From Pirellulales bacterium (GTDB taxonomy: Bacteria > Planctomycetota > Planctomycetia > Pirellulales > PALSA-1355): a DNA stretch of 64,000 nt. This document shows positions 22,732 to 27,793 of the stretch, piece by piece (the first letter of the stretch is position 1; each line of letters begins with the position of its first letter). The translations under genes were made by a program, and so were the position numbers. Where the stretch lies: contig JALHMI010000008.1 of the NCBI GenBank assembly GCA_022844125.1, positions 124,001 to 188,000 on the forward strand. Direction: 5' to 3'. The notes under the pieces were generated by a model. The model searched no databases and was not told where the DNA came from. It saw only the letters and a list, made by a program, of their open reading frames with translations.

Positions 22732-25700
22732 CTAACGCTTCGGTGGCGGTTCGACGATCCTGCGGTCGTTCCAGTTGTCCAGCCGACGTGCCGGCTGGCT
22801 GTCGATCAAGAGGTTCTCGAGCGTCATGATCGGCGTGCGCTCGGGGGCCTGGGGATCGCGCGCCCGATGAAACATCCAGAGGTTCGGTTCATACACCAGG
22901 AACTCCCACTCGAAGTTCATCCGGGTGTCTCTCCAGATCCATTCGTCGGAACTGGAGATCCTGATTCGCAGCGGCACGTACTGGCCCGACGAGACTTCGC
23001 GGTAGTCGTCGAATCGCTCGACCAGCATGTCCCCCTGTAACTCAAGAGGTACGTTGCGAGCGGTGTCGATCACCAGTATGCCTTCGCGCGAGTAGGACTG
23101 GATCGAGCCGCGCCAATGGTCGTCCACGCCATTGCCGACCATGATCCGAACCGGCTTTTCAAAGGTGTACGCCAGTACGGCCTTATCCGGCGTCACTTCG
23201 AGGGCGCGGTACACGACATTTTTGTGCTCGCCAAGTTTCATCAGCGGCGAGGCGTACGTTACTCCATGCCGGGCAAGCAGGTTTGTGGCATCTGGAGCAG
23301 GCAGCTCGAACGACATCCGCCGGTTTTTGCCAATCTCGTCGAACTTGATTTCGAAGCTGTAGCGCAGATCTTTAGGCGGCGGCTCAAGCCACAATTGATT
23401 GGCTGCCAGCAGTTTGTCGACGATCTCCTGGCAAGCCGTTTGCAATTCGGCGGGAAGCGGATCGCGGAGCAGCGGATCGTCTCCGACCACTTCGGCGGTG
23501 ACATCTTCTCCAGCGCCGTCCAGCACTTGCAGGATCGCCAGTCGCGTGCTGGGTGTGGGGTCTGCCCGCTCGCTTTCGCTTTGAACACGCATCCGGTAGT
23601 TACCAGGTGTTGCGAACCGGAACGGGCGCGAACGGGCCAGAAACACACCGTTGCCGATGCGCGCCCAGACGTACGAATCCTGAGGCGAGATGCCCTCCAC
23701 TGCCAGCTCGCCTGCGGGCGAAGTCTTGCCGCCGGCAGCGTGCCGCGGGCCACCGGGCAGACGTGCAAGAAGCGACATTGCTTCATCATCAATCGGCTTT
23801 CCCGCAGCATCGACGAACTCTGTCTTCAAGTCGATGCCCGGCAAGAGCGTGAAATCCAGCTCCAGTGTCTGCCCCGGCATCAAGTAGGCGACGTTCTCGC
23901 TGGAGCTCTCGGGTAAGCAATCCTGATTCAGCAGGACCAACTGCTTACGCGTGAGGAGATCGCGATCATAGAAGCCGGGCTTATTGATCTGAATCGTCGC
24001 CGGAAACTCGATGTGGGGAGCGTGCGCATTGCCCGAGCCGAACTGCAGGCGGTATCGGCCGTCCGCATCGCTCGTGACGTGTCCACCCTCTCGCTCATTG
24101 CCATAGACAATCAGCGCCGAGACTTGTGCGCCTTTGATCGGCCGACCGTGGCCGTCGGTAACGCGTCCGCTCGCAAAGTATGGCCATCGCCGCTCCTTGT
24201 CGGCGGGCGCAATCGCTTTGCCCTGCATACGCACGGTAATGGGGGCATTGTCGCCGGCGAAGACGTCCACCAGTTGTTCGCTCTGCTCGTAGTCGAGCTC
24301 ACCCAGCCGTTTGGCCCCGAAGTTCACGGTGAGTCGGTGCCGACCAGGAATCAGACCCTTGATGGTCGCTTCGCTTTCTTCATAGTTGCCACTGATGGTG
24401 TAAGAAGGAAGCTTCGGATCGTCGGCCACCAGGCTCACCGAACAGCCGGGCAGCGGATCGCCCGTGGTCGCGTCAACCGCTCTCACCGTCAGTGTTCCGG
24501 TGGGCCGGACTGGCACATCGACCGCCACGTCCTGCTGGTCATCATCGATCACAATCGGATCGCTCAGTTGATGGCCGTATTTGTCGGACCAACTCAACAT
24601 CGCGCGATAATTGCCAGGAGTCAGCCGCGCGGCGCGACCTTCCACACGAGATTCACTTGTAATAGACCGCCAAGTCATCCCCGTGATTGTGTCCCGCCAG
24701 TCGTCTTGCCGGGCGGGCTCATCTGGTTCGAGTGCGCGATAAAAGATGATATGTCGTCCGTCGGCGGCACTCCCTTTATCGTCGACAAAGCGCACTGTCA
24801 GCGACTTGTTCTCGCTGGCCAATTGCGCAAGTTCTGGGCCCAGCACCAGTGCATCCGCCGTCAGGTCAAGTGTTCCAAGCGACAGTTTGATTCTCGTCAG
24901 CTCGGGAGCGAATTGCTTGTAGCGAGGGTCGAGCGAGAACCACAGGCCGTCGATCTGATTGCGTTTGTTAAAGTGAAATGTGATCGACAGCCGGTGGCGC
25001 CCCCAGGCCGACTGCACTTCGAGCAGCTCTTGCGTGCCGGCGCGCTTGCTGGAGAGGACCAGGCGCGATTCGAGCGGACTGAACTGCCTGGTGAGCGTGA
25101 TTACCAACTCTTTCAAGTTTGCGGCTGAGAATTGCTTCTGGAGCGCGGGCGCGAACAGTTTCTCGGCCTCGTCGAACTGGCCTGCTGCGAGCAAGTCATG
25201 AAACTCCGTCACGAGTTCTTTCTGCTGCTGCGGAAACGCGTCTCGCACAAAGTCGATGTCGTCCTCATCGATCGCCTGCGCCGCGGCAGGCTCGGCCTTG
25301 TCCCTTTCGGCAAACAGGGCATCAACTTCGCTCGCCGCTTCACCGGGTGCCGCGGGCCGTGGTGCGCCTGGCGGCGGGCCGGCTGCCGACTTTCCCCCCG
25401 GCGGACTCACTGACTTGCTCGGAGGCGTGGGCTCTGCTTCCGCACGCACCAGCCGCACGCCAAACGAGATGGCAACGATCGCCAGCAGCGCGATTGTCAT
25501 CGCGCCACGCAACACTCCGCCCATGCGGACGCGTGGTTGTCCCTCGCTTCGCTCAATCGCCGCGAGCCGCCGTTCCAGCTTCGTGGTTCGCACCACGGCC
25601 ATTGCCAGACCGAGTCGTTGCCGGCGCGAGAGCCGCGTGGCCATCTCGAGGAGCGTCTCGACGTAGGCCTCGCGATCGGCCAGGGCATGAATCGCATAAT

Positions 25701-26535
25701 CATCGCAGGCCCGCTCGCGCACCGCGGCGATCCGCCGGCTCGCCAGCCAGATGAGCGGATGAAACCAGTAGAACGCTTGTACGAGCCGCTCGACGAGTTG
25801 CCAGAAGCAATCCGCCCGCTCCACGTGAGCCAGTTCATGCACCAGAATCGCATCGATCAGCGAAGCGTCCCTTTCTTCCGCCAGTTCGCTGGAAATCACT
25901 ACGGCCGGCCGCCACGAGCCCAGTACGATTGGCACGCTCACCGCGTCAGATTTCAAAAGCGCCACCGCGCGCCACGGAGTAATCGTCCGCCGCCAGACCT
26001 CGAACCGCGTCAGCCAGAGAGGCGATGCAACGGGTTGCGCACGCCGGCGTAATCGCCTCACCGCCCACAGGTTCGCAGTAAGTTGCAACAGCAGGACGAT
26101 CAGGCCGCCTGTGTAGAGGACCGCCAGCGACGTGCCCAGATCGACACGCCAGTTGGGCCAGCGCGGTTTGGATTCCACGGGCAGCGGATCGAATGCGGTT
26201 GCGGGACGCGAGGGCACTGGCAGCGCGTGTGGCCCGGCTTCCTGCCGCGGGACCATCGGCGGCGGTGGCACGGCGACAACATTTCCGGCATGATCCACCT
26301 GGACCCACTCGAGATTTCCGGCTGTGCGCACCGGAGGCTGCGCGGCGGGCAGAAGCGGCAGTTCCCACCGCGGCATCCACCAAGCCGCGGCCGGCAGTGC
26401 GATAGCCACCGCGAGCACAGCGTTCCAGAGCGCGCTCGCCGTCAGGGGATGCCGGCGTGCAAGGATCGCGTCCACCGCCAGGGCGACCACGAAGAGAATG
26501 CTCACTCCCAAGAGCCACGTCGCTATGGCGTTCAT
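22732..26535 (-). CDS. Giant BlaR1/MecR1-like M56 peptidase receptor
   Basis: 1267 residues. The N-terminal 380 residues contain membrane helices and the M56 zinc peptidase motif HELAHVERAD (233-242) followed by a second zinc-ligand region (ERACDDYAI). After a final helix near 350-366 comes an external part of about 900 residues: a DUF3887-like segment (FHDLLAAGQFDEAEKLF), two carboxypeptidase-regulatory-like (Ig) folds (GTLTVRAVDATTGDPLPGC and GRVTDGHGRPIKGAQV), and an uncharacterised tail. No penicillin-binding sensor is present, so the signal is not a beta-lactam in any simple way. It is next to the BlaI-type gene, with 74 bp between, so repressor cleavage by this protease is the expected mechanism. 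Confidence 0.88.
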   Translation of the reverse strand: MNAIATWLLGVSILFVVALAVDAILARRHPLTASALWNAVLAVAIALPAAAWWMPRWELPLLPAAQPPVRTAGNLEWVQVDHAGNVVAVPPPPMVPRQEAGPHALPVPSRPATAFDPLPVESKPRWPNWRVDLGTSLAVLYTGGLIVLLLQLTANLWAVRRLRRRAQPVASPLWLTRFEVWRRTITPWRAVALLKSDAVSVPIVLGSWRPAVVISSELAEERDASLIDAILVHELAHVERADCFWQLVERLVQAFYWFHPLIWLASRRIAAVRERACDDYAIHALADREAYVETLLEMATRLSRRQRLGLAMAVVRTTKLERRLAAIERSEGQPRVRMGGVLRGAMTIALLAIVAISFGVRLVRAEAEPTPPSKSVSPPGGKSAAGPPPGAPRPAAPGEAASEVDALFAERDKAEPAAAQAIDEDDIDFVRDAFPQQQKELVTEFHDLLAAGQFDEAEKLFAPALQKQFSAANLKELVITLTRQFSPLESRLVLSSKRAGTQELLEVQSAWGRHRLSITFHFNKRNQIDGLWFSLDPRYKQFAPELTRIKLSLGTLDLTADALVLGPELAQLASENKSLTVRFVDDKGSAADGRHIIFYRALEPDEPARQDDWRDTITGMTWRSITSESRVEGRAARLTPGNYRAMLSWSDKYGHQLSDPIVIDDDQQDVAVDVPVRPTGTLTVRAVDATTGDPLPGCSVSLVADDPKLPSYTISGNYEESEATIKGLIPGRHRLTVNFGAKRLGELDYEQSEQLVDVFAGDNAPITVRMQGKAIAPADKERRWPYFASGRVTDGHGRPIKGAQVSALIVYGNEREGGHVTSDADGRYRLQFGSGNAHAPHIEFPATIQINKPGFYDRDLLTRKQLVLLNQDCLPESSSENVAYLMPGQTLELDFTLLPGIDLKTEFVDAAGKPIDDEAMSLLARLPGGPRHAAGGKTSPAGELAVEGISPQDSYVWARIGNGVFLARSRPFRFATPGNYRMRVQSESERADPTPSTRLAILQVLDGAGEDVTAEVVGDDPLLRDPLPAELQTACQEIVDKLLAANQLWLEPPPKDLRYSFEIKFDEIGKNRRMSFELPAPDATNLLARHGVTYASPLMKLGEHKNVVYRALEVTPDKAVLAYTFEKPVRIMVGNGVDDHWRGSIQSYSREGILVIDTARNVPLELQGDMLVERFDDYREVSSGQYVPLRIRISSSDEWIWRDTRMNFEWEFLVYEPNLWMFHRARDPQAPERTPIMTLENLLIDSQPARRLDNWNDRRIVEPPPKR

Positions 26536-26609: not shown

Positions 26610-26987
26610 TCACTTTCCCTTCTTCCTTTTCCCGAGATTCTTGCGCAGCCGCTCCAAGAGCTCCGGCGAGAGTTCTTCGTCCTCGACCAGCCGCATCACG
26701 AGGGCTTCGGCCGAGCCGCCAAAGAACCGCTTGAGCAGGCTTTGCGTGGCGCGGCCTTGAACTTTCTCCCGCGGGATGGCGGCTTCGTACATTGCTGGCT
26801 GGCGGCCGCGGATGCGCACGTAGCCCTTCACCTTGAGGACGCGGAGCATCGTCCGCACCGTGGAGTCGTGCGATTCGTCCGACAGTGCCAGTCGCACGGT
26901 CTCGGCCGTCACGGTCCCCTGGCTCCAGAGGATTTCCATGAGCTGCGATTCACGCTCGGTGAGCATTTCCGAAGTCGGCCGGGCCAT
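26610..26987 (-). CDS. BlaI/MecI/CopY family transcriptional repressor
   Basis: 125 residues. The winged-helix domain begins LTERESQLMEILWSQG, followed by VTAETVRLAL and DSTVRTMLRVLKVKGYV, the hallmark of the BlaI family, and a C-terminal dimerisation helix rich in charge. The next gene on the strand encodes an M56 receptor. Two CGTTA-N6-TAACG palindromes lie 29-44 and 83-98 nt upstream of the start and are the likely operators, implying autoregulation and derepression on signal-triggered cleavage. Confidence 0.93.
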   Translation of the reverse strand: MARPTSEMLTERESQLMEILWSQGTVTAETVRLALSDESHDSTVRTMLRVLKVKGYVRIRGRQPAMYEAAIPREKVQGRATQSLLKRFFGGSAEALVMRLVEDEELSPELLERLRKNLGKRKKGK

Positions 26988-27015: not shown

Positions 27016-27031
27016 CGTTAATTACTTAACG
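27016..27031. promoter_or_regulatory. Proximal operator for the BlaI-type repressor
   Basis: CGTTAATTACTTAACG: perfect CGTTA / TAACG arms with a 6-nt centre, 29-44 nt upstream of the repressor start. A possible promoter on the minus strand (TTGCAA, 17 nt, TACGTT) ends at this element, so binding would block transcription. Matches the distal copy exactly in arm sequence and spacing. Confidence 0.78.
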
Positions 27032-27069
27032 TAACGTAGCGAGTCGTCATGGGCGTTGCAATCGGAATC

Positions 27070-27085
27070 CGTTAAGAATCTAACG
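27070..27085. promoter_or_regulatory. Distal operator for the BlaI-type repressor
   Basis: CGTTAAGAATCTAACG: same CGTTA-N6-TAACG pattern as the proximal copy, 54 bp away, about five helical turns apart. Same-face spacing would allow two repressor dimers to cooperate. Part of the divergent-free upstream region of the repressor gene. Confidence 0.78.
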
Positions 27086-27128: not shown

Positions 27129-27326
27129 TCAAGTGCGGCCAGGCCGGTCGGCGCGCGTCGAGAACATCAGCACGATCGCCAGATAGAACACCGCCGTCGT
27201 GAGCCACACTAGCCACGGCTCCGGCAGCACGCGCAGTCCCGCGAGCCAGACGCTCACCAGCACCATGGCGAGCAGCATCCGCCGCACGCTGAAGCGGAAC
27301 TCGTTCGTCGCAAGCTCGTCGCTCAT
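27129..27326 (-). CDS. Small two-helix membrane protein coupled to the SecD-head-like gene
   Basis: 65 residues from ATG 27326, overlapping the upstream stop by the ATGA arrangement. After a charged N-terminus (MSDELATNEFRFSVRRM), two hydrophobic stretches (LLAMVLVSVWLAGLRVL and LVWLTTAVFYLAIVLMF) and a basic tail. No family recognised. The tight coupling to the SecD-head-like protein suggests joint function at the membrane. Confidence 0.75.
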   Translation of the reverse strand: MSDELATNEFRFSVRRMLLAMVLVSVWLAGLRVLPEPWLVWLTTAVFYLAIVLMFSTRADRPGRT

Positions 27327-27793
27327 GGTGCGTTCCTGCCCATGATTCCGTCGGAGATTCGTTCGGCCTCGGCCTGTTCGAAATCGCCGAAGATCTGCGC
27401 CTGTCTGCTGAGCTTGCTTAGGATCACCGGTGCGCACACCACCTTGCCATCAATCAGGAATGCCACCGGGTGGTTCAGGTGCGCGGCGGTGAGCTTTCCA
27501 AACTTCTTGGCCCCAGCGTCCGTGAAGACGATGTCGATCGCCACGTGCCCGCCCTCGGTCTGGCCCGCCATCGCCTGGGCCACATCTGCGTTCGAGAGCT
27601 CGGTCTTCGGGTGCAGGTAGATCACTCGTCGCCTGGGTCCTGGCAATTCGGCTTTTTGCAGGCCGTCGGCGGGCTCCCATTGTGCTCGGCGGATTTCCAA
27701 TAGGAGCACGGGAGTTTCTGCTGCCTGGATGCTGGGCGAGGGCCCCGTCGCGATGATGATCGCCGTTAACATGGCCACGGTAATCGCACGCAT
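27323..27793 (-). CDS. Secreted SecD P1-head-like domain protein
   Basis: 156 residues. Signal peptide (about 1-24), then a domain with VAIDIVFTDAGAKKFGKLTAAHLNHPVAFLIDGKVVCAPVI, which closely follows the SecD P1 head subdomain pattern (L-x-F-x2-x-G-...-R-x-A-I-V-L-D-G-x-V-x-S-A-P-x-I). No membrane segments of SecD follow, so this is a stand-alone exported head domain. Such proteins occur in planctomycetes and other bacteria with unknown function; the SecD-like fold is inferred. It is followed by the small membrane protein through an ATGA overlap. Confidence 0.78.
   Translation of the reverse strand: MRAITVAMLTAIIIATGPSPSIQAAETPVLLLEIRRAQWEPADGLQKAELPGPRRRVIYLHPKTELSNADVAQAMAGQTEGGHVAIDIVFTDAGAKKFGKLTAAHLNHPVAFLIDGKVVCAPVILSKLSRQAQIFGDFEQAEAERISDGIMGRNAP

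Follow-up and report, generated by a model that had tools for sequence, protein, structure and literature searches.

Among the closest described counterparts of the locus studied here are the BlaI/MecI-BlaR1/MecR1 systems of Staphylococcus aureus and Bacillus licheniformis. For S. aureus BlaI, and for the copper repressor CopY, a two-operator (two-layer) mode of promoter occlusion has been proposed (PMC7253601). In Clostridium thermocellum, BlaI proteins were shown by DAP-seq to bind at their own promoters; each target has two dyads, and each regulon comprises 1-3 promoters (PMC8457756). The planctomycete locus analysed here also has a pair of dyads, with a sequence of their own. Our search of the open-access literature returned no description of this dyad or of BlaI operators from planctomycetes; note that part of this search was weak, yielding mostly blaIMP matches.

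Results

Two perfect inverted repeats precede blaI

We refer to the whole 64-kb stretch of DNA analysed as the window. The relevant features are listed below.

22732..26535, minus strand: gene for a BlaR1-like M56 membrane metalloprotease of 1267 aa (PF05569, E=4.7e-32)
26610..26987, minus strand: blaI, encoding a BlaI/MecI-family repressor of 125 aa with the helix HDSTVRT (Pfam PF03965, E=3.1e-24)
27016..27031, minus strand: putative proximal operator O2, CGTTAAGTAATTAACG, over the expected transcription start
27033..27038, minus strand: putative -10 element, TACGTT, 1 bp from O2
27056..27061, minus strand: putative -35 element, TTGCAA
27070..27085, minus strand: putative distal operator O1, CGTTAGATTCTTAACG, 8 bp upstream of the -35 element
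27129..27437, minus strand: small ORF, on the same strand as blaI, whose stop bounds the blaI promoter region

A sequence-only reading of this DNA had placed two perfect inverted repeats, 54 bp apart, 29-98 nt before the repressor start. Re-reading the window confirmed this. Both O1 and O2 match CGTTA-N6-TAACG perfectly, and 38 bp separate the two (54 bp start-to-start). The blaI ATG is at position 26987, and O2 is the nearer dyad, 29 nt away. On the other side, the small ORF, for which there was no Pfam match, stops 44 bp before O1. Hence, the dyads are within a short intergenic stretch. Also just upstream of the blaI operon, positions 27323-27793 of the window (minus strand) encode a small protein consisting of a SecDF P1-head domain alone (PF22599).

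Genome searches were done by pattern matching, without a weight matrix. O1 and O2 are the sole zero-mismatch CGTTA-N6-TAACG matches in the window; the whole genome (6,443,003 bases) has three in all. The third, at C25:3607, has the spacer ACAACC and no convincing gene closely downstream. The reversed control pattern occurs six times genome-wide. Hence, the bare pattern is not enriched, and the signal is the position of the dyads. When the 150-bp upstream region was subjected to 20,000 dinucleotide shuffles, at least one site appeared in 15, and two sites in none. Any 5-bp-arm N6 dyad was present twice in only two of the same shuffles.

The repressor has a full Penicillinase_R domain (PF03965; residues 9-118, 86 bits against a cut-off of 22.6). 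Solved BlaI/MecI relatives in the PDB align across the entire protein (E=5.8e-9 to 1.6e-7), the best match being S. aureus BlaI (E=5.8e-9). The score on the NCBIfam CopY equivalog model, 50.9 bits, is far under the cut-off of 121.95. Furthermore, the protein is without any cysteine and so has no Cys-X-Cys metal motif. In the M56 protein, the HEXXH motif is HELAH, at residue 233. There is a carboxypeptidase-regulatory domain, and a DUF3887 match below the curated cut-off. A transpeptidase (penicillin-binding) sensor domain is absent from this protein, and from the complete M56 orthologues scanned. We saw neither a beta-lactamase gene nor a PBP2a gene next to the blaI-M56 pair.

The dyad follows one BlaI clade

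Relatives were drawn from 57 relatives, 392 genomes phylum-wide, 396 genomes of the order, and GTDB contigs. The contigs were scanned with six peptide words and returned few relatives. Ten BlaIs were found whose predicted recognition helix contains HDST[VI]RT, and the motif is invariant among all nine aligned clade members. These BlaIs form one clade, with support of 95/88, in a 98-protein tree that has few columns and unsure deep forks. The sequence-only reading had named absence of the palindrome before orthologues as the result that would tell against it. Instead, GTTA-N6-TAAC is present, at most 150 bp upstream, for nine of the ten clade BlaIs, compared with 1 of 88 other BlaIs (Fisher 6e-11, from phylogenetically non-independent counts and a clade sample of n=10). 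The dyad follows the clade across classes of Planctomycetota. For the tenth clade member (L035), there is no dyad in reach because an upstream ORF, with its stop 4 bp from the start of blaI, stays open as far as the contig edge and runs off it. Hence, the promoter is out of view.

Outside the clade, L099 has TGTTAATGGAATAACA at about -132 from its blaI start; this may reflect chance or a second origin. A looser paired pattern (GTTA-N6-TAAC twice), applied phylum-wide, matched in 7 of 392 genomes. Beyond the window, these matches resemble chance or a tandem repeat, judged by sequence, and the pattern was set aside.

The M56 partners vary. The C-terminal part differs among clade members, which have CarboxypepD_reg, LRR and TPR domains. 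In G007 (L123:5000-8282), blaI is followed by a short M56-like start, and then by unrelated sequence and reading frames interrupted by stops. It seems that the neighbouring M56 partner has been lost or broken here, while one operator persists.

The dyads bracket a putative promoter

The putative -35 hexamer aligns with TTGACG, TTGCCA, TTGCGG and TTGCCC of orthologues, and the putative -10 hexamer with TATCAT, TATATT, TATGAT and TACGAT. In the window, the order is O1, 8 bp, -35 element, 17 bp, -10 element, 1 bp, and then O2 over the start site, which is expected at about 27025-27031 on the minus strand. At clade loci, TTGNNN and a -10-like hexamer, 17 bp apart, are found between or beside the dyads (the -10 elements of L034 and L038 are weak). 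A rival -10 element lies within O2 (ATGACG-18-AGTAAT); its score is similar when the window is taken by itself, but it does not have the O1 spacing found across orthologues. One repeat had earlier been described as overlapping a possible -10 element. The proximal repeat is indeed near a -10 element but, for the hexamer compared between orthologues, the two abut with a 1-bp gap and do not overlap. We conclude that O1 and O2 bracket the blaI promoter, as predicted from its likely -35 element, -10 element and start site.

O2 is present in eight of the nine clade promoters with a dyad. Only O2 is clear in G007 (L007) and G427 (L039), and only O1 in G372 (L038). At L039, a degenerate upstream copy, TGTTAGAAAAACCACA, can be read by eye, 8 bp from the -35 element. 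Distances between the end of O1 and the -35 element are 8, 8, 8, 7, 7, 7 and 7 bp (all seven loci having O1). The start of O2 ranges from 2 bp inside the -10 element to 9 bp beyond it, across clade loci. Spacings between O1 and O2 are 50, 54, 54, 55, 58 and 61 bp. Since these keep no single helical phase, looping, or strict face-phasing of the two sites, is not favoured.

The rigid gap between O1 and the -35 element (7-8 bp), set against the varying gap between the -10 element and O2 (-2 to 9 bp), could mean that O1 helps the promoter, by binding BlaI or as an AT-rich UP-like element, and that O2 alone represses. We consider this unlikely. O1 and O2 are the same dyad, L007 is without O1, and members of the BlaI family are known as repressors. 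Moreover, the fixed spacing also fits repression that blocks contact by the alpha-CTD or with the -35 element.

The regulon appears limited to the blaI operon

Exact and A/T-restricted motifs, sought in four and six clade-bearing genomes, were less frequent than the reversed control in each of them. The extra matches checked were mostly inside ORFs, or ahead of weak or unconvincing ones. A genome scan for CGTTA-N6-TAACG, suggested previously as a means to define the regulon, did recover O1 and O2, but revealed no wider enriched targets. The absence of enrichment beyond clade blaI promoters is most simply read as a local circuit, in which the dyad appears to serve autoregulation of blaI and of the M56 partner gene, with a predicted regulon limited to their own operon.

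A different regulator, rather than BlaI, might recognize the dyads and control the operon. Note that the evidence linking dyad and BlaI is of sequence, and that L099, outside the clade, has a similar dyad. Even so, the sites of another regulator are expected elsewhere in these genomes, where the dyad is not enriched. The dyad also tracks the BlaI clade across Planctomycetota classes, and BlaI proteins autoregulate via dyads at their own promoter (PMC8457756). We regard control by another regulator as decidedly improbable. That the dyads are functionless AT-rich palindromes, arising by chance, is scarcely credible: genome-wide, the bare pattern is no more frequent than the reversed control, but two sites occurred in 0 of 20,000 shuffles, and the dyad precedes 9/10 orthologues against 1/88 others.

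A model for control of the blaI-M56 operon

We are left with a reading that we consider very likely as a whole: the palindromes would be O1 and O2 operators of the adjacent BlaI, acting in promoter shut-off and M56-triggered release. Briefly, a BlaI dimer would bind each 16-bp dyad (core GTTA-N6-TAAC, usually CGTTAA-N4-TTAACG). O1, ending 7-8 bp upstream of the -35 element, would be about where the RNA polymerase alpha-CTDs sit. O2 would cover the stretch directly past the -10 element, the site of transcription start. With both operators occupied, the promoter should be closed and expression of the blaI-M56 operon low, a case of negative autoregulation. Derepression may then follow from cleavage of BlaI, set off when the BlaR1-like M56 membrane protease senses an envelope signal. 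Because the M56 partner is without a BlaR1-type sensor domain, the inducing signal is unlikely to be a beta-lactam that binds such a domain. Note that binding, repression and the proteolytic trigger are what we infer; read from sequence are the sites and gene identities, conservation in the clade, the bracketing of the promoter, and the lack of further enriched targets.

Other BlaI paralogues have other dyads

The window's genome has nine PF03965 genes (L143-L151), and the dyad at or close to the promoter differs in most of them. The C3:47685 paralogue has a canonical TTACA-CT-TGTAA sequence (TTACA-N2-TGTAA type), and the C14:196832 paralogue has the promoter dyad TACTACATATGTAGTA. Others include GACTA-N6-TAGTC and AACCTAA-N4-TTAGGTT, and two related paralogues have a CAGAC-type dyad in common. 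None of the other eight BlaI promoters in the genome matches the GTTA dyad with fewer than two mismatches. Conversely, the best fit to TTACA-N2-TGTAA in the window blaI promoter has three mismatches.

Further dyads were noted among planctomycete BlaIs. A clade with a D-F-x-TVQTYLRR helix (e.g. DFATVQTYLRR) has GTTCAATTGAAC-like dyads near the start (L065, L082, L079, L025). BlaIs with an AYVTVANL helix have TTTGGTTAACCAAA dyads upstream. Those with AFTTVQTLLRIM, L070 and L084, share ACTAAACT-N3-AGTTTAGT dyads.

We conclude that the candidate operator in the window is one among many putative clade-specific BlaI operators, the other assignments being taken from upstream sequence. The sequence-only reading had proposed paired operators with a non-TACA specificity. 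This gains support, since the dyad tracks one clade (9/10 vs 1/88) and its layout around the promoter is kept. Assignment to a planctomycete BlaI group holds for that clade, but planctomycete BlaIs overall use many dyads. Because the nine paralogues of one genome show mostly distinct promoter dyads, planctomycete genomes might hold mutually insulated BlaI-M56 circuits. Each clade would have its own helix and operator, regulation would be essentially confined to the own operon, and M56 partners would sense different non-beta-lactam cues via their varied C-terminal domains. We see the case for and against this broader idea as evenly balanced.

Discussion

For a BlaI clade that has not been studied, the locus provides an operator and promoter arrangement that can be tested. 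In addition, nine paralogous BlaIs with mostly different dyads, in one genome, are a natural data set on specificity change in the small winged-helix domain of BlaI. There is also a caution: a BlaI/BlaR1-like pair need not mean a beta-lactam resistance system.

Like the BlaI/MecI systems of S. aureus and B. licheniformis, the window has a PF03965 repressor gene beside one for an M56 HEXXH membrane protease, and dyads at the repressor's own promoter, two per promoter. However, the BlaI/MecI operator is TACA-N2-TGTA, whereas the core here is GTTA-N6-TAAC. Similarly, BlaR1/MecR1 have a penicillin-binding (transpeptidase) sensor domain that the window M56 protein does not, and the beta-lactamase/PBP2a context of those systems was not seen beside the window pair.

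CopY/CopR copper repressors belong to the same fold family and have a 16-base operator (PMC7253601). The cop promoter also has two operators, of which one is near the -35 element and the other covers the RNA polymerase site (PMC7253601). Their operator, RNYKACANNTGTMRNY, and their Cys-X-Cys metal motif both set them apart from the window BlaI (PMC7253601). The layout deduced from sequence in the window is similar to the two-layer occlusion that has been put forward for CopY and for BlaI of S. aureus (PMC7253601). C. thermocellum BlaI_0696 and BlaI_1845 are alike in their paired dyads, autoregulation, 1-3-promoter regulon and non-TACA repeats (PMC8457756). Their repeats have GTCTAT/GACTAT arms, spaced by 5 nt in BlaI_0696, and both lineage and operator differ from those of the window (PMC8457756). 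Hence, BlaI proteins with paired dyads, very small regulons and motifs other than TACA have been described before; what the window dyad would add, by this comparison, is a new specificity.
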